In this document: positions 19,465 to 40,397 of the stretch, piece by piece
Position numbering within the stretch: position 1 is the stretch's first letter
Layout of the letters: every line of letters begins with the position of its first letter
Source: Streptococcus suis S735
Lineage (GTDB): Bacteria; Bacillota; Bacilli; Lactobacillales; Streptococcaceae
Length of the DNA stretch: 64,000 nt
NCBI RefSeq assembly: GCF_000294495.1
Contig: NC_018526.1
Coordinates: 1,054,001 to 1,118,000 of the forward strand
Direction: 5' to 3'
Notes under the pieces: generated by a model
The model's database searches: none
Told to the model about the DNA's origin: nothing
What the model saw: the letters and a program-made list of their open reading frames with translations, nothing else
Position numbers and translations under genes: made by a program

Positions 19465-22083
19465 TTATAGATTATCAGCTACGCTGTTCAAGAGGGTTTG
19501 GATTGCAGAGGCATCGCTACCACCTGCCATGGCCATATCTGGCTTACCACCACCACGACCTGCTACGATTGGCGCAAGGACTTTGATGAGGTTACCTGCA
19601 TGAACATCGCTTGACTTGCTTGCCACAAGGACATTGACCTTGTCGCCGATGGCCGCAACCAGCACCAAGACATCTGAGTAGTCTTTCTGCTTCCAGTTGT
19701 CAGCGAAGGTACGGAGGGCACCTGCATCTGAAACTTGGACTTGGCTGGCAATGTAGCGAATGCCGTTAGCATCTTTGACATTTTTGAAGACATCACCAGC
19801 AGCGGCTGCCGCTGCTTTTTCTTTCAGAGCTGCATTTTCTTTTTGTAGGTCACGAACTTGTTGTGCAAGACTTTCAACCTTGTTTGGCACTTCCTTGATT
19901 TGTGGTGACTTGATGGTTGCCGCTACTTCTTTGAGGGCATCTTCTTGGTCACGATAGGCAAGGAAGGCTTCACGACCTGTTACCGCAATGATACGGCGAG
20001 TACCTGAACCGATACCTTCTTCTTTCAAAATCTTGAAGATACCGATTTCAGCGGTGTTGCCAACGTGGGTACCACCACAGAGTTCGACAGAATAGTCACC
20101 AATTGTCACCACACGGACTTCTTTACCGTATTTTTCACCGAAGAGGGCCATAGCACCCATTTCCTTAGCTGTGTCAATATCGGTTTCAACCGTTACAACT
20201 GGAATGGCATTCCAAATTTGCTCATTGACTTCTTCTTCAATACGACGAAGTTCTTCCGCAGTAACTGCCTCAAAGTGCGTAAAGTCAAAGCGGAGGAAGT
20301 CTTGCTCGTTCAAGGAACCAGCCTGTGTTGCATGCTCGCCGATAATATTGTGAAGAGCTGCATGGAGCAAGTGAGTTGCTGTGTGGTTCTTCTCAACACC
20401 CTTACGGCGTTTTGTTTCGATTTCAAGTGTGTAGGTTTGACCAACTGAAATGCTTGCGGACAGCTCAACTGTGTGTAATGGCTGACCATTTGGTGCTTTC
20501 TGCACATCGATGACAGTCGCAACAATGTCTCCAGTAGCATTTTTCACAAAACCATGGTCTGCAACCTGACCACCCATTTCTGCATAGAATGGTGTTTGGT
20601 CAAAGACAAGGAGGGCTTGACCTTCTGAGACTGCTTCTGTACGCGCATTATCAGCCACAATGACAGATAAGCTTGCTTCAAGAGCTGTTTGGCCATAAAC
20701 AAAGGTCGACTCTTCTGTGATAGCAGCCAGGGTTTCATTTTGCATCCCCATTGAACCACCTTTGACAACTGAAGCACGGGCACGGTCTTGTTGCTCTTTC
20801 ATAGCCGCTTCAAAACCAGCAATGTCAAGGGTCATACCACGGTGCTCAGCCAATTCTTCTGTCAATTCTACTTGGAAACCATAGGTATCATAGAGTTTGA
20901 AAATGTCACGACCATCAATCTCAGACTTACCTTCTGCTGCCAATTTATCCATCAATTGCTCAGCAAATTGTGAACCTGTATGGATAGTACGAGCAAATGA
21001 CTCTTCTTCACTCTTAACAATCTTCTCAATGAAGGCACGTTTTTCAAGTACTTCTGGATAGTAACTTTCCATGATATTACCAACTGTCTCCACCAATTTG
21101 TACAAGAATGGCTCTGTAATGCCCAAACGTTGACCATGCATAGAAGCACGACGAAGGAGACGACGAAGGACATAACCACGACCTTCATTTCCAGGAAGGG
21201 CACCGTCACCAATAGCAAAAGAAAGGGCACGGATGTGGTCTGCAATAACCTTGAAGCTCATGTTGTCGCCATCTTGGTCATAGGTCTTACCAGAAATCTT
21301 TTCTACTTCACGAATGATTGGCAAGAAGAGATCCGTTTCAAAGTTGGTCTTAGCCCCTTGGAAAATAGCTGCTAAACGCTCCAAACCTGCGCCCGTATCG
21401 ATGTTTTTGTTTGGCAATTCCTTGTACTCAGAGCGAGGAACAGCTGGGTCTGCGTTGAACTGGGACAATACGATATTCCAAATCTCAATGTAACGGTCAT
21501 TTTCAATATCTTCTTCCAAGAGACGGATACCAATGTTTTCAGGGTCAAAGTCAGTACCACGGTCAAAGAAAATCTCCGTATCTGGACCAGAAGGACCTGC
21601 ACCGATTTCCCAGAAGTTATCTTCAAGCGGAATCAAGTGGCTTGGCTCAACACCAAGGGCAATCCAACGATTGTATGAATCCATATCATCAGGATAGTAA
21701 GTCATGTAGAGCTTGTCTTTTGGAAAAGCAAACCATTCTGGGCTTGTCAAGAGCTCAAAGCCCCATTCAATCGCTTCATCACGGAAATAATCACCAATAG
21801 AGAAGTTACCAAGCATTTCAAACATGGTGTGGTGGCGGGCTGTCTTACCAACGTTCTCGATGTCGTTGGTACGGATTGATTTTTGGGCATTTGTAATCCG
21901 TGGGTTATCTGGAATGACAGAGCCATCAAAGTATTTCTTGAGGGTTGCCACACCAGAGTTGATCCACAAAAGAGTGGGATCGTTTACAGGGACAAGATTT
22001 GCTGAAGGCTCAACAGAGTGACCCTTTGATTTCCAGAAATCCAACCACATTTGACGAATTTGAGCAGAAGATAAATTTTTCAT
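19465..22083 (-). CDS. alaS: Alanyl-tRNA synthetase
   Basis: The 872-residue protein has normal bacterial length. The N-terminal class II catalytic domain starts [18 protein letters not shown] and includes [21 protein letters not shown]. The editing domain carries the zinc-binding HTATHLLH and CGGTHV motifs (about residues 560-670). The C-Ala end contains a coiled coil ([28 protein letters not shown]) and a glycine-rich [14 protein letters not shown] segment. It charges tRNA-Ala in the cytoplasm. No good ribosome site is seen just before the ATG. A T-box leader lies upstream of the preceding gene. Confidence 0.97.
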
Positions 22084-22362: not shown

Positions 22363-22863
22363 TTAAGTCGATGCATCTTCCATCATTTCGATGTAGTCAA
22401 TTGCGACCACTAAGGAAATGACCAAATCTGCACAGGAGTCCTCCAATACAGTAACGGAGTAATGAGAAGTTAAATGAAAGAGTTCTTTGGAGATTTCAGC
22501 TACGAGCATACCATCTGGCCTTTTCAAGCGAAAATCCAAATCCCAGATATTTCCGTCTAGGATTAAACCTAGATTTTCCACAGTATAGCGATCCTTGAAA
22601 AAAGTAAATTCCTTTTGCAAGTAGAAAGAATGTCCCTCTACCATATCAATGGTAAACTGGGGCAGGAAGGTCAAAAACTTCTTAGTAATCTGACAAACTT
22701 CCCCACCTCTGGAATTGGTTACGATAAATCGTTTTGGAATTTCGAGAAAAGATCCCTCCACTTGATAAGCAAGATTCCCAAAACTATCACGAATATCAAA
22801 TTTTTCACCACCAAAGGTAAAGCGCTGTTTCACTTGAAATTGCTTCATGATAACCTCCCCCAA
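22363..22863 (-). CDS. LURP-one-related (tubby-like) protein
   Basis: The 166-residue soluble protein reads as the LURP-one/YxjI fold: MKQFQVKQRFTFGGEKFDIRDSFGNLAYQVEGSFLEIPKRFIVTNSRGGEVCQITKK, then paired beta strands to the end. Its function is not established. The likely start is the ATG five codons into the frame (22848), unless the upstream one is used. It lies between the T-box leader and alaS, so its transcription probably responds to alanyl-tRNA charging. Confidence 0.8.
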   Translation of the reverse strand: MGEVIMKQFQVKQRFTFGGEKFDIRDSFGNLAYQVEGSFLEIPKRFIVTNSRGGEVCQITKKFLTFLPQFTIDMVEGHSFYLQKEFTFFKDRYTVENLGLILDGNIWDLDFRLKRPDGMLVAEISKELFHLTSHYSVTVLEDSCADLVISLVVAIDYIEMMEDAST

Positions 22864-22866
22864 AAA

Positions 22867-23089
22867 AATAACAAGAAATCAAACGAAGGGCGAAAAACCG
22901 CGGTACCACCTTCATTCAATGACTTGTCATTCTCATTTAAGAAACTGTATCCACAAGCAAAAAACTTTTATATATAAGCCACAAACTGTGAATACAGGCT
23001 CTACTATTCAATTGTAATATTAAGTAGCAAAATACTTGGCTTAGATGGCTCGCAACAACCGCCAATTTTCTGAACTAAGGTGTCAAGTA
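22867..23089 (-). promoter_or_regulatory. T-box riboswitch, probably alanine
   Basis: The minus strand carries the T-box core AAGGTGGTACCGCGG (22898-22912), preceded by an AATGAC/GTCATT hairpin and followed by CGCCCTTC and a T-rich run, giving the competing terminator. Upstream, TACTTG/CAAGTA and CTTAG/CTAAG form a Stem I candidate (23033-23089) whose distal loop has GUUG and GAGCC. In its asymmetric internal loop a GCC codon followed by A (23038-23040) is a plausible Ala specifier. alaS two genes downstream fits. Specifier choice is tentative. Confidence 0.8.
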
Positions 23090-23115
23090 CCAATTCTTAA
23101 TAAGTAAATCGTCAA

Positions 23116-36340: not shown

Positions 36341-37141
36341 TTATAAAATCATCTCATCGTCAGTTAGCTTTTCACCGCTGTTTTTGTAGAAAAGGTCCAT
36401 CAAGTTTTGAACAGTCAAGTTCTTCTTCTCTTCTCCTTCTACATCGACAACAATCTGACCACGGTGCAACATGACCAAACGATTACCATATTCAATGGCG
36501 TTTTCCATATTATGCGTAATCATCAGAGCTGTCAACTGATGACTTTCCACGATTTTCTTGGTCAATTCCATAACCATATCGCTGGTTTTTGGATCAAGGG
36601 CCGCAGTGTGTTCGTCCAGGAGCAGAACTTTTGGTTTAACCAGCGAAGCCATCATCAAGGTCAGAGCCTGACGTTGACCACCTGAAAGAAATTGCGTGTC
36701 CACCTTCATACGGTTTTCTAGTCCCAGACCGAGCTCTTTCAAGGCTTCCTTAAAAATAGCACGTTCACTATCTTTGACCCCCCAGCCAAGACCACGTGAC
36801 AATCCACGACGATAGGCAATAGCCATATTTTCTTCAATGGTCAAGCGAGAAGCTGTTCCCATCTTAGGATCTTGGAAAACACGGCTGATGTCCTTAGAGC
36901 GTTTGGCAGCTGAGACATACTTAATGGATTTACCTTCAAGCAAAATATCGCCCGAATCAACCGTCAAGGCACCTGCAAGTGAGTTCATGAAAGTTGATTT
37001 ACCAGCACCATTACCACCGATGATAGAGATAAAATCACCTTCTTTTACATCTAAGTTCAACCCACGAAGGACATGGTTCTCATTAACTGTTCCAGCTTCG
37101 AAGGTTTTATGAATATTTTGGATTGATAAAATTGTAGACAT
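36341..37141 (-). CDS. trpZ: ABC transporter ATP-binding protein (TrpXYZ type)
   Basis: The 266-residue ATPase has Walker A GGNGAGKST, signature LSGGQRQ, Walker B VLLLDEHTA and the H-loop MITHN. It powers import of the solute captured by the two lipoproteins upstream. The set matches the streptococcal tryptophan-type importer family (ABC transporter with DUF-type SBP). The operon leader codes for a Tyr/Phe-rich peptide, which questions a tryptophan-only role. It is last in the operon, 9 bases after the permease. Confidence 0.85.
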   Translation of the reverse strand: MSTILSIQNIHKTFEAGTVNENHVLRGLNLDVKEGDFISIIGGNGAGKSTFMNSLAGALTVDSGDILLEGKSIKYVSAAKRSKDISRVFQDPKMGTASRLTIEENMAIAYRRGLSRGLGWGVKDSERAIFKEALKELGLGLENRMKVDTQFLSGGQRQALTLMMASLVKPKVLLLDEHTAALDPKTSDMVMELTKKIVESHQLTALMITHNMENAIEYGNRLVMLHRGQIVVDVEGEEKKNLTVQNLMDLFYKNSGEKLTDDEMIL

Positions 37142-37150
37142 GACTTCCTC

Positions 37151-38044
37151 CTAAGCATTTCCATTCAATTTTGGACGACGAATATTCAATTTCTTCTGCA
37201 ATTCTGGCACATAGAGAACGGTTGCCAGAAGGATAGCTGAGAAGAGTTTAACAAGGTCTGCATCCATACCTGGAATTTCCAAAATCGCTAAGATAATCAA
37301 ACGGTAAACAACTGCACCGAGAACAACCGATAGGAGTCTCCAACCCAAGCGTAAGTTACGCAAGATAACTTCTGCAATAATGACAGATGCTAGACCGATA
37401 ACAATGGTACCTGTACCAGAGTTCAAATCCGCATAGCCATTATTCTGAGTAAGAAGAGCACCACAAAGGGCAATTAGACCATTCGACAACATATAACCGT
37501 AGATTTTCATATTATCTACATTGATACCATTGGCCTCACTCATTGGAATATTATCCCCTGTTGAACGAATAGCTAGACCAATTTGTGTATTGAGCAAGAG
37601 CGTCAATAAGCCTACAACTGCTAGTACAAAGACCAGACCAATCACCAAAACAGCATTTGTTTTTGTCAAACCAAAATCCTGCAATTGGGTCACTAGAGTT
37701 TCTTGCTTAAGCAGAGCCACATTGGCTTTGCCTAAGATTTTCAAGTTGATGGAGTAGAGTCCTGTCAAGGTAACAATACCGGTCAAAAGGGCTGGAATTT
37801 TTAGTTTTGTATGAAGTAAACCAGAAATCAAGCCTGCACCCATACCAGCTACCATAGCCATAAAGGTTGCCAGCAAGGGATTCACTCCGTTCACAATCCC
37901 TGTCGCACAAACAGCAGCTCCAAGCGGATAAGATCCCTCAGCTGTCATATCAGCAATATCTAAAATACGAAACGTCAAGTAAACACCAATCGCCATAACT
38001 GACCAAAGCAAGCCTTGCGAGATACTTGATAAAATAATATCCAC
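37151..38044 (-). CDS. trpY: ABC transporter permease (TrpXYZ type)
   Basis: The 297-residue permease has about eight to nine helices and the branched-chain-type permease layout. It starts MDIILSSISQGLLWSVMAIGVYLTFRILDIADMTAEGSYPLGAAVCATGI; the ADMTAEGSYPLGAA segment is typical of this family. It forms the membrane channel with the ATPase at 36341. Normal length, no defect. Confidence 0.85.
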   Translation of the reverse strand: MDIILSSISQGLLWSVMAIGVYLTFRILDIADMTAEGSYPLGAAVCATGIVNGVNPLLATFMAMVAGMGAGLISGLLHTKLKIPALLTGIVTLTGLYSINLKILGKANVALLKQETLVTQLQDFGLTKTNAVLVIGLVFVLAVVGLLTLLLNTQIGLAIRSTGDNIPMSEANGINVDNMKIYGYMLSNGLIALCGALLTQNNGYADLNSGTGTIVIGLASVIIAEVILRNLRLGWRLLSVVLGAVVYRLIILAILEIPGMDADLVKLFSAILLATVLYVPELQKKLNIRRPKLNGNA

Positions 38045-38098: not shown

Positions 38099-39073
38099 TT
38101 ATTCAGATACAGCAAGCTTAGAAGTATCGATACCTAATTTCTGAGCCATTTCTTCATTAACGTGAAGACTGACGGTCTCTGGGTATTCTACTGCCGTTTC
38201 TGACACATTGGCTCCTTCGATAATCTTAATAGCCATTTTTGCAGTTTGACGACCTAAAGCTTCATAGTTGGTACCGTAAGTCAAAAGACCTCCTTCATCC
38301 ACCATGTCCGTTGAACCACCGATTACTGGAACCTTATGCTCCACAGATAATTCACCAATCATGGTCATGGTTGAAGCGACAGTATTGTCTGTTGGAATAA
38401 AGAGAGCATCTACATCCTTCATCAAGCTAGTTGTCGCATCTTGGACTTCATTTGAAGATGTGATTCCTTTTACTACTACCTTATAACCTGCTTTTTCTAG
38501 CAATTCCTTAGCTTGCTCTACCTGGACTTCTGAATTCCGTTCGCTAGTAGTGTACAAAATACCAACGGTCTTAGCATCAGGAACAGCTTGTCCTAGCAAT
38601 TCAACCTGTTTGTCAATTGGAGCTTGATCAGATGTACCTGTCAAAAGTCCACCTGGTTTTTCAATGGATTCTACCAAGTCAGCTGACAAGGGATCTGTAA
38701 CCGCAGTAAAGACAATCGGCGTTTCAGTAGACACAGTCGCTAAACTCTGGGCAGACGGCGTAGCGATTGCCAAGACAATATCATTTCCATCGATTAATTG
38801 TTCTGAAATGGTTTGAAGGTTAGCTTGATCGCCTTGGGCATTTTGATAATCCAAAACCAATTTTTCACCCTCTTTATAACCATTTGCTTCTAATTCCGCC
38901 ACAAAACCCTCACGGGCAGCTGTCAATGATTCATGCTCCATATATTGGAGAACTCCAACTTTTACCACATCTGAGGAAGCTTGTTCTGATGATGAGGAAC
39001 AAGCTGCAAGTGTTAGCAAACCCATACTTGCTACTGAAATAGTTGCCAATTTTTTTACTAGCTTATAATACAT
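38099..39073 (-). CDS. ABC transporter substrate-binding lipoprotein, copy 2 (TrpX type)
   Basis: A lipoprotein signal (LATISVASMGLLTLAACSSS, Cys lipidated) precedes a periplasmic-binding-protein type 1 fold of about 300 residues: VKVGVLQYMEHESLTAAREGFVAELEANGYKEGEKLVLDYQNAQGDQANLQTISEQLI, later AITTPSAQS-like and FTAVTDPLSA. It is paralogous to the gene upstream (39097) with many differences, so the two receptors may bind different aromatic solutes. It is located outside, anchored in the membrane. Confidence 0.87.
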   Translation of the reverse strand: MYYKLVKKLATISVASMGLLTLAACSSSSEQASSDVVKVGVLQYMEHESLTAAREGFVAELEANGYKEGEKLVLDYQNAQGDQANLQTISEQLIDGNDIVLAIATPSAQSLATVSTETPIVFTAVTDPLSADLVESIEKPGGLLTGTSDQAPIDKQVELLGQAVPDAKTVGILYTTSERNSEVQVEQAKELLEKAGYKVVVKGITSSNEVQDATTSLMKDVDALFIPTDNTVASTMTMIGELSVEHKVPVIGGSTDMVDEGGLLTYGTNYEALGRQTAKMAIKIIEGANVSETAVEYPETVSLHVNEEMAQKLGIDTSKLAVSE

Positions 39074-39096: not shown

Positions 39097-40056
39097 TTAC
39101 TCTTCTAATGCTTTTATAGTCGCTGCATCAATACCAACAGCTTTAGCCATTTCTTCATTGACGGTAATAGCCGCTGTATTTGGTTTTTCAACTGCTAAGT
39201 CAGCAGGCTTTTCACCCTTCAAAATCTTCACAGCCAATTCACCAGCTTGAACACCGATAGCATGGTAGTCGACACCGTAGGTAAATAGAGCTGCGTCAAT
39301 AACTGCCGCGTCACTTCCCATAGCTGGAACTTTTGCTTCTTTTAAAATATCACCGATTGTTGAAGCTGTAGAGGCAACTGTATTATCAGTTGGAAGATAG
39401 ATAGCATCGACTTTTCCTGCAAGTGAAGTAATAGCTTGCTGAACATCGTTTGTCGTCGTAACTGTTGTCACTTCTACTTTTACACCTTTTGCTTCGAGTG
39501 CTTTTTTAGCCTGCTCAGCTTGAACTTCTGAGTTTACCTCGCTAGAATTGTAGAAAATACCGACAGTCTTCGCAGTTGGTACAACTTTGAGCAACATCTC
39601 GATTTGACCTTCCACATCAGTTGCATCAATCGATCCCGTCATGGTCCCACCTGGTTTTTCCAATGATTCAACCAAACCTGCTTCAACTGGATCTGTGACA
39701 GCTGTGAATACACTTGATGTTTCACTATCTGCATTAAGCATGGTTTGGGCTGCCGGTGTTGCGATGGCAAAGTTAAGATCATTTTTTCCTGCCAATTTCT
39801 CAACCATTGTCTGTAAGTTTGCTTGATCACCTTGAGCATTTTGCAAATCAATCGTCAGATTTTCACCTTCCTTGTAGCCTGCTTCTTCGAGCGCCTCTAC
39901 AAAGCCTTCACGAGCTGAGCTCAACGCTTCATGTTCAGCATATTGAATAATACCAACATTGACTGAACTTGAATCTGACGAATTGGAACTACATGCAGCA
40001 AGCGTTACTGCTGACAAAAGTGCTACTGAACTAAGTATAATTTTTTTAAATCCCAT
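39097..40056 (-). CDS. trpX: ABC transporter substrate-binding lipoprotein, copy 1 (TrpX type)
   Basis: The lipobox LAACSSNSS follows a typical signal peptide. The mature part shows VNVGIIQYAEHEALSSAREGFVEALEEAGYKEGENLTIDLQNAQGDQANLQTMVEKLAGKNDL, the TrpX/ABC_sub_bind family pattern. It is the first gene of the operon, with AAAGGAG before the ATG. A leader of about 300 bases holding a leader peptide and attenuator-like hairpins lies upstream. The solute may be Trp, Tyr or Phe; the leader favours Tyr/Phe sensing. Confidence 0.88.
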   Translation of the reverse strand: MGFKKIILSSVALLSAVTLAACSSNSSDSSSVNVGIIQYAEHEALSSAREGFVEALEEAGYKEGENLTIDLQNAQGDQANLQTMVEKLAGKNDLNFAIATPAAQTMLNADSETSSVFTAVTDPVEAGLVESLEKPGGTMTGSIDATDVEGQIEMLLKVVPTAKTVGIFYNSSEVNSEVQAEQAKKALEAKGVKVEVTTVTTTNDVQQAITSLAGKVDAIYLPTDNTVASTASTIGDILKEAKVPAMGSDAAVIDAALFTYGVDYHAIGVQAGELAVKILKGEKPADLAVEKPNTAAITVNEEMAKAVGIDAATIKALEE

Positions 40057-40093: not shown

Positions 40094-40127
40094 AAGGACC
40101 GCTTAGACTACACTCTAAACGGTCCTT
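40094..40127 (-). terminator. Attenuator terminator before the ABC operon
   Basis: On the minus strand AAGGACCG and CGGTCCTT form a perfect 8-bp stem extended by TTAGA/TCTAA, followed by TTTCTTG. It lies about 40 bases before the first lipoprotein gene. The U-tract is weak, so efficiency may depend on conditions. Confidence 0.75.
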
Positions 40128-40164
40128 ATATTTCATCTGTATAGGAAAACAGAATGAATTATCC

Positions 40165-40225
40165 GTGCCATTTAGATGTATCATCTATGAGGCACATGTC
40201 AAAATAGCTACAGCCACATAGATAC
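40165..40225 (-). promoter_or_regulatory. Mutually exclusive hairpins in the ABC operon leader
   Basis: The segment at 40178-40189 can pair upstream (GTATCTATG with CATAGATGATAC, 40178-40225) or take part in a second hairpin (GTGCC with GGCAC, enclosing TAGATG/CATCTA, 40165-40195). Such alternatives are expected of an attenuator placed between a leader peptide and a terminator. The effect on the terminator is not resolved by eye. Confidence 0.55.
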
Positions 40226-40274
40226 AAACTTTACGTTCCCGTGTTTGCATCCATGTTTACCATGTCTACAAACA

Positions 40275-40337
40275 CTATCTAAAATAGCCGTAGAAATAAG
40301 TATGATTAGCTGAATGATTTTGACACATTTGTAACAT
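40275..40337 (-). CDS. Leader peptide rich in Tyr and Phe (20 residues)
   Basis: The short frame starts at ATG 40337, 8 bases after AAAGGG, about 25 bases into the predicted transcript. It encodes 20 residues ending HTYFYGYFR, so five of six consecutive codons near the end are Tyr or Phe; there is no Trp codon. A second in-frame ATG lies three codons in. Ribosome stalling at scarce charged tRNA-Tyr or tRNA-Phe would change folding of the downstream hairpins, as in classical amino-acid operon attenuation. The peptide itself probably has no other function. Confidence 0.72.
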   Translation of the reverse strand: MLQMCQNHSANHTYFYGYFR

Positions 40338-40368
40338 CTCTGTTTCCCTTTCTCATTTATTTGTAACT

Positions 40369-40397
40369 ATCATAACTGTTTTCAAATTATTTGTCAA
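40369..40397 (-). promoter_or_regulatory. Promoter of the ABC operon leader
   Basis: TTGACA (40392-40397) and TATGAT (40369-40374) on the minus strand, 17 bases apart. The predicted start near 40362 leaves a leader of about 300 bases. Confidence 0.85.

Follow-up and report, generated by a model that had tools for sequence, protein, structure and literature searches.

We found that an importer operon in Streptococcus suis S735 is preceded by a leader which, judged by sequence comparison, is very probably a ribosome-mediated transcription attenuator sensing charged tRNA-Tyr and/or tRNA-Phe, with the importer carrying the same amino acids. The leader lies on the minus strand (40397-40094) of the window, i.e., the whole 64,000-nt stretch of DNA analyzed here (GCF_000294495.1, NC_018526.1, positions 1,054,001-1,118,000 of the forward strand), and runs from a promoter through a 20-codon open reading frame (ORF) and a terminator into the operon. 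The asterisk marks a stop codon throughout.

40369..40397, minus strand: sigma-70-type promoter TTGACA-17-TATGAT, 11 of 12 consensus matches
40346..40352, minus strand: ribosome-binding site GAAAGGG of the leader ORF, read from the sequence and unscored
40275..40337, minus strand: leader peptide ORF MLQMCQNHSANHTYFYGYFR*, ATG to TAG, 20 codons, by translation; kept in Streptococcus and beyond
40281..40298, minus strand: candidate sensing codons Tyr-Phe-Tyr-Gly-Tyr-Phe; Tyr/Phe conserved in 110 related leaders
39097..40056, minus strand: substrate-binding lipoprotein 1 (PF04392), below the NCBIfam TrpX cut-off; nearest structure by sequence 6hni
38099..39073, minus strand: substrate-binding lipoprotein 2 (PF04392), by Pfam
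37151..38044, minus strand: permease (PF02653), by Pfam
36341..37141, minus strand: ATPase (PF00005), by Pfam

A sequence-only reading of this DNA had called the promoter, the ORF with its ribosome site and a GC stem before the first lipoprotein gene, and all three were recovered. The peptide ends in HTYFYGYFR* (last codons His Thr Tyr Phe Tyr Gly Tyr Phe Arg stop). The stem, AAGGACCGTTTAGA/TCTAAGCGGTCCTT at 40127-40094, is terminator-like, although the U-tract within the following TCTTGTTT (minus strand) is weak. An attenuator should have an intrinsic terminator before the first gene and a translatable leader ORF with a codon run; the window leader has the former, and by sequence the latter, its translation being predicted. 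The leader folded with a z-score of -7.4 (316 nt), and none of 100 shuffles did as well. The Rfam scan of the whole window at cut-off returned a single RNA, a ribosomal protein L20 leader elsewhere (RF00558, 54165-54293, minus strand), and a phage search with the leader as query returned no match.

The reading had proposed, as a check, to ask whether the Tyr/Phe run is conserved in streptococci while the rest of the peptide drifts. Among 40 collected loci with a relative of lipoprotein 1, 33 were streptococcal, and the element precedes the importer in every one of these (32 by pattern; in L025, seen separately, the stop codon is changed). The 33 leaders of the window and 32 loci comprise 23 distinct peptides, 22 ending in R and one in YF* without R. 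All 22 distinct R-ending peptides have Tyr or Phe at positions -7, -6, -5, -3, and -2, and the N-terminal half drifts, the outcome favorable to the reading. Leaders were also found in Gemella (two loci, three leaders, with ends YYYSSS*, YYYSAL*, and YYYSHS*) and Lacticaseibacillus (two loci, ending HNFFAGFFG*). One Gemella locus, L033, has two such leaders ~1.6 kb apart (219 and 1805). By pattern, no leader was found in three of the 40 importer loci: L039, L040, and L034, the last with only 138 nt of upstream sequence before its contig ends.

Alignment and bridging loci indicate that the window leader is homologous to the Rfam family RF02863, "Enterococcus sRNA 2410", yet it stays below the membership score (35.3 bits, E 5e-4 in 781 bases; cut-off 61). 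RF02863 matches were detected in 158 of 295 Lactobacillales genomes, 71 above the cut-off. The ORF position is common to the best 30 loci (30/30), and when these were examined together with 80 more picked from the list, a leader ORF in the same register was present in 110/110 (ATG, GTG, or TTG starts allowed). Tyr or Phe occupies codons -6 and -5 in 110/110, codons -3 and -2 in 109/110, and codon -7 in 92/110, and no Trp occurs within the last eight codons of these 110 leaders. The run falls partly inside the RF02863 model and is to that extent selected by the search; codons -7 and -6 precede the model. Codon -6 (Y in 96, F in 14; n = 110), which lies 5' of the model start and outside every proposed helix, is Tyr or Phe in 110/110, vs a Y/F background of 1.25% among the 880 codons from -9 to -16 of the same frame (some of them 5' of the start codon). 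The stop codon coincides in 94 of the 110; the reading frame of the other 16 continues for three more codons.

The first downstream gene of these 110 leaders was of the PF04392 type in 69, aroE in 35, DAHP synthase in two, and a permease, pheA-tyrA, or SBP_bac_3 gene in one each; none was found for L154. Downstream genes were grouped as BLAST clusters, with Pfam run on one member each of the aroE, DAHP synthase, and permease clusters and on L125 and L152; the importer cluster was named via Pfam on the window's own proteins. Operons behind this leader include aroE-DAHP synthase operons. The mean numbers of Y and F in the last eight codons were 2.1 and 2.7 at the 69 importer loci vs 2.8 and 2.1 at the 35 aroE loci, a difference so small that Tyr and Phe sensing are indistinguishable.

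The secondary structure was assessed by proposing pairing strands from streptococcal sequences and counting two-sided changes on an alignment of 54 leaders, non-redundant at 75% (A1).

40276..40291, minus strand: strand 1, at the ORF end; pairs with strand 2 (two-sided changes in 8 of 13 pairs)
40261..40273, minus strand: strand a, 5' arm of a nested hairpin (a:b, two-sided changes in 9 of 11 pairs)
40243..40255, minus strand: strand b; pairs with a or strand 2 (b:2, two-sided changes in 7 of 13 pairs)
40209..40229, minus strand: strand 2; alternative partner of 1, b, or 3, by covariation counts
40183..40195, minus strand: strand 3; pairs with 2 or 4 and holds most of the shared stretch (2:3 weak, 4 of 11 pairs)
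40165..40177, minus strand: strand 4; pairs with 3 or the terminator 5' arm (4:5, two-sided changes in 8 of 10 pairs)
40114..40127, minus strand: strand 5, terminator 5' arm, by stem search and covariation
40094..40107, minus strand: strand 6, terminator 3' arm, followed by the weak U-tract, by stem search and covariation

The earlier proposal of two mutually exclusive hairpins sharing 40178-40189 was right about the shared stretch (CATAGATGATAC), whose segment can pair with 40229-40209 or with 40177-40165, but incomplete, as both hairpins belong to a more extended series of exclusive helices. In the terminator state (1:2, a:b, 3:4, 5:6), 93.1% of cells were paired, with two-sided changes in 34 of 45 pairs; in the read-through state (a:b, 2:3, 4:5) 92.1%, with changes in 21 of 32; and in the stop-codon state (b:2, 3:4, 5:6) 90.6%, with changes in 24 of 34. 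None of 500 shuffles reached as high for any of the three states, although the shuffle statistics ignore kinship. Slid versions of the structure dropped to 32-42% paired, a comparison favoring the unslid structure in that alignment columns were taken from one row.

When rows were swapped between species, the paired share fell from 90.9% to 86.1% for 4:5, and only slightly for b:2 (92.2% to 90.3%) and for the weakest helix, 2:3 (90.0% to 88.6%); the weak covariation of 2:3 and b:2 is partly due to strands that hardly vary. Insertions give an independent indication: leaders with an additional base in strand 4 tend to have additional bases in strand 5 as well (neither in 34 leaders, strand 5 only in three, strand 4 only in four, both in 13; Fisher p 9e-7, which assumes independent rows where the rows are related). 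A terminator hairpin with a T-rich tail was present in 145/145 leaders by a permissive search, six of them reassigned. The covariation check that the sequence-only reading had called for thus supports the terminator state and a conserved, mutually exclusive antiterminator, strongly for 4:5 and weakly for 2:3.

These pairings suggest how the leader could work. With no ribosome, 1:2 and a:b would pair, 3:4 would form, and the terminator 5:6 would halt transcription. When charged tRNA-Tyr or tRNA-Phe is short, a ribosome would stall on the Tyr/Phe run and cover strand 1, leaving a:b in place; the free strand 2 would then take strand 3, the freed strand 4 would take arm 5, and the importer would be transcribed. 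With ample charged tRNA, the ribosome would reach the stop codon and cover a, so that b takes 2, 3:4 forms, and transcription ends. Stalling in vivo and this direction of regulation are what we infer from the pairings.

We estimated the response to ribosome position by folding the RNA beyond each possible ribosome edge, at equilibrium rather than co-transcriptionally. Averaged over 54 leaders, the upstream pairing of strand 3, computed with no shuffled control, was 0.32-0.38 without a ribosome, 0.67-0.83 with free RNA starting from -12 to +3 of the stop codon, and 0.35-0.41 at +12 to +18, climbing again after b was covered. Antiterminator pairing of the terminator arm was 0.37-0.40 without a ribosome, 0.57-0.61 at -9 to +3, and 0.45-0.46 at +12 to +15, vs a flat 0.38-0.48 in a dinucleotide shuffle control (one per leader). 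The edge of a ribosome lies ~12 nt past its A-site codon, so the high zone corresponds to a ribosome waiting on the Tyr/Phe codons and the low zone to one at the stop codon. Across 145 leaders, many of them close kin, and with a margin of 0.05, the stall value exceeded that without a ribosome in 107 and fell below it in 10, and exceeded that at the stop position in 85 and fell below it in 11. For the window leader, antiterminator pairing was 0.49-0.65 without a ribosome, 0.67-0.70 at the stall, and 0.43-0.46 at the stop codon; as it is already high without a ribosome, that contrast is small, and only the one against the stop codon is clear. In this model the computed outcome, averaged over 54 leaders, does depend on the position of the ribosome at the sensing codons.

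A search of the class sample with a model built from A1, i.e., from Tyr/Phe leaders (R1), found weaker copies, of which four end in Trp codons: TWQNWRR*, AWQFWRR*, SWQNWRR*, and AWQNWRR*. A second model built from these four (R2) matched in 146 of 290 Lactobacillales genomes. A Trp-codon ORF was present in 89 of the 90 R2 loci examined (30 returned plus 60 chosen from the list), the exception being L265, whose contig begins just upstream, and 70 loci have at least two Trp in the last ten codons. Of the 73 Trp leaders with the standard stop, 72 have Trp at -6 and 59 have it at -3, positions that fall among those occupied by Tyr/Phe in the sister type. Because R2 was built on Trp codons, its matches are biased toward Trp; the four R1-found leaders are free of that bias. 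Some Trp leaders have one Trp codon (AWQIRTA*, YWQSRMD*, YWQSHIE*, and NWQSQNR* at L294, L292, L300, and L278, and similar), so a single hungry codon may suffice.

Folding of 35 Trp leaders gave a similar low-high-low course (0.40-0.47, then 0.57-0.69 at -9 to +3, then 0.39-0.44), although for three or more of the 12 printed leaders the hairpin finder seems to have chosen the later terminator. A binding-protein-type ORF, picked by length and N-terminal motif, lies downstream in 84 of the 90 Trp loci, and at three others the downstream gene looks like trpB by eye. The cut-off of RF04312, the "trpB ncRNA motif", was reached by seven of the 11 Trp-codon leaders tested. That family has a similar helix plan; it differs in its Trp codons and in being a 107-position model of the 3' part, and the window leader scores 19.1 bits against its cut-off of 59.

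R1 matched in 35 of 398 genomes of the class sample, five of them outside Lactobacillales, and in three of 299 genomes of the phylum sample, all Lactobacillales. Genes behind the leaders outside Lactobacillales were named by eye as DAHP synthase (FYFSYF*), pheA (FFFSDFR*), and a PF04392-like protein. L172, L173, and L219, from one genus, have a Phe-only run (NTFFFSDFR*) before a prephenate-dehydratase-like gene, as expected of a Phe-specific sensor. Leaders L170 and L214, of one genome that is likewise outside Lactobacillales, precede genes that by eye are transketolase-like (YYYFGWFS*) and aminotransferase-like (FYYYFGFFR*), contexts suggesting that the regulon extends to precursor supply and transamination. 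In L171, also outside the order and matched by RF02863 but not by R1, the run combines Trp and Tyr (NIWYSYRR*), and the gene behind it was identified by eye as an NSS-type sodium-dependent transporter.

Could it be, instead, that the nascent peptide binds free Tyr or Phe and thereby halts the ribosome (TnaC-like arrest), rather than that the codons await charged tRNA? The C-terminus [YF]FSYFR* is strongly conserved, with Arg in 110/110. Yet Tyr and Phe interchange in the run, and the Arg codon sits in helix 1:2. The Arg is absent from the leaders ending in YF* (L017, L018, L029), from those of Gemella (SSS*, SAL*, SHS*) and Lacticaseibacillus (GFFG*), and from FYFSYF* (L166-L168). The Trp version swaps the aromatic residues and keeps their positions, and induction by plenty is ill-suited to biosynthesis operons. 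We consider peptide arrest highly improbable, and take the codon run as the probable sensor of charged tRNA.

The importer itself was assessed against solved structures and its paralog. The genome has three such binding proteins, the tandem pair of the window and a 36% identical paralog (C1:1321597-1322517) that is closely preceded by a T-box match (1322791-1322936). The solved structure closest to lipoprotein 1 by sequence, 6hni, is CD0873, solved with Tyr. As described in the accessible text of PMC6816091, which compares Tyr-bound CD0873, Phe-bound VC_1101, and Trp-bound SP1069, Tyr-279 of CD0873 is a tyrosine in VC_1101 as well and Gln in SP1069, making room for Trp, and Glu-263 of CD0873 contacts the Tyr hydroxyl. 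The equivalent of Tyr-279 is Tyr in both window proteins; that of Glu-263, where the alignment is ambiguous, is Asp or Ser in lipoprotein 1 and Ser in lipoprotein 2.

The groups were compared at the Tyr-279 position and not at the Glu-263 one. All 84 Trp-leader proteins have Gln there, as does the T-box paralog, and all 101 Tyr/Phe-leader proteins have Tyr (96) or Phe (5) (69 from the 110 loci plus those of 32 lipoprotein-1-relative loci, with L028, L033, L034, and one short reading omitted). This division may go back to a single old duplication, so the 185 proteins do not count as separate events. Six streptococcal genomes with no R1 match each encode a single importer protein, always with Gln, and two streptococci with the leader have both protein types (in L322, the neighbor L314 was read instead of the second copy).

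It might still be that the attenuator is real and the importer carries Trp too, with codons and substrate only loosely linked. The window proteins do match the NCBIfam TrpX profile (NF041285), at 285.9 and 333.9 bits, below its cut-off of 390. That cut-off also splits the groups, on five proteins only: a Tyr/Phe-leader example scores 345, a Trp-leader example 452, and the T-box paralog 454.8. With the pocket residue splitting the groups without exception among the proteins tested, Trp transport by this importer is very unlikely, and the substrate is most likely Tyr and/or Phe. The Tyr/Phe reading, including the suggestion that an importer of the TrpXYZ type may carry Tyr or Phe, is thus supported by comparison of the codon run, the helices (2:3 weakly), the operon context, the pocket residue, and the Trp-codon sister.

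The name of RF02863 implies a trans-acting small RNA. In Enterococcus faecium, sRNA_2410 was reported as a 195-nt RNA by RNA-seq with two transcripts on northern blots (PMC5593968, available text), and the words leader, attenuat-, terminator, and cis-acting are absent from the main text of that paper. A terminated leader could look just like this, although this is not the reading of those authors. Since at 108 of the 110 loci the element lies in front of genes for aromatic amino acids or for the corresponding type of importer (of the remaining two, one has an SBP_bac_3 gene and one no gene found), and a translated-looking ORF and a terminator are present, a trans-acting role is extremely unlikely compared with a cis-acting attenuator.

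There is hardly any probability that the leader is a tryptophan T-box riboswitch, as published for S. suis trpX, although strand 4 contains UGGC, the same as the T-box sequence in PMC9382623; pairings 3:4 and 4:5 explain this motif. The available text of PMC9382623 describes Trp-responsive, T-box-dependent expression of trpX with a 461-nt T-box and co-transcription with one permease and one ATPase gene, whereas in the window operon there are two binding proteins and the leader measures ~270-300 nt; we infer that the published operon best fits the paralogous one. A search of the whole genome with RF00230 gave 10 matches at E 0.001 or better and none at the leader, in line with the earlier remark that it has no T-box core. 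A T-box search at gathering score misses the paralog's own locus (L174), so T-box absence there was not counted as evidence. A sub-threshold T-box match (52.9 bits) lies elsewhere in the window (22883-23107, minus strand), upstream of a 166-aa ORF (22363-22863) and an 872-aa ORF (19465-22083) that resembles alanyl-tRNA synthetase by eye.

Ribosome-mediated attenuators are used by the trp, phe, and his operons of enterobacteria. The window leader has in common with them a short ORF with codons for the sensed amino acid, exclusive helices, and an intrinsic terminator; it differs in its lineage, in the greater length of its helix chain (strands 1, a, b, 2-6), which includes a nested hairpin, in a second switch (3:4/4:5) before the terminator, and in the use of one scaffold in Trp and Tyr/Phe versions. 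The uORFC-13-1 motif of Acholeplasma aroF, a proposed Phe uORF attenuator, is alike by description; it is from another lineage and has a reported U run coding for at least one Phe (PMC8632094, accessible part). The S. suis trpX T-box serves a starvation-induced importer of the same protein superfamily; as a tRNA-binding T-box for Trp, before what appears to be the paralogous operon, it is a different device (PMC9382623, available text). No earlier description of the leader was found in the open-access PMC listings searched or in the accessible text of PMC9382623, PMC5593968, PMC8632094, PMC2494555, and PMC6816091. As far as we searched that literature, the kind of regulation is known, while the lineage, the extended relay, and the codon-swapped sister are apparently undescribed.

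Taken broadly, it is likely that a single codon-programmed scaffold, so far filed as an sRNA and a trpB motif, is common to Lactobacillales and a few further Bacilli, and that in it a change of codons re-targets the sensor: Tyr/Phe codons for the importer, aroE-DAHP synthase, and pheA-tyrA, Phe-only codons for pheA, and Trp codons for the TrpXYZ importer and trpB. The scaffold would do the work done elsewhere by T-boxes, and its codons would reveal the substrates of unassigned importers. If this is true, classical leader-peptide attenuation would be a widespread form of aromatic amino-acid control in lactic-acid bacteria, streptococci, and enterococci. Two Rfam families would be re-explained, two importers lumped as TrpXYZ by annotation would be separated, and a natural codon-swap series would be at hand for joint testing of sensor specificity and the transporter pocket.
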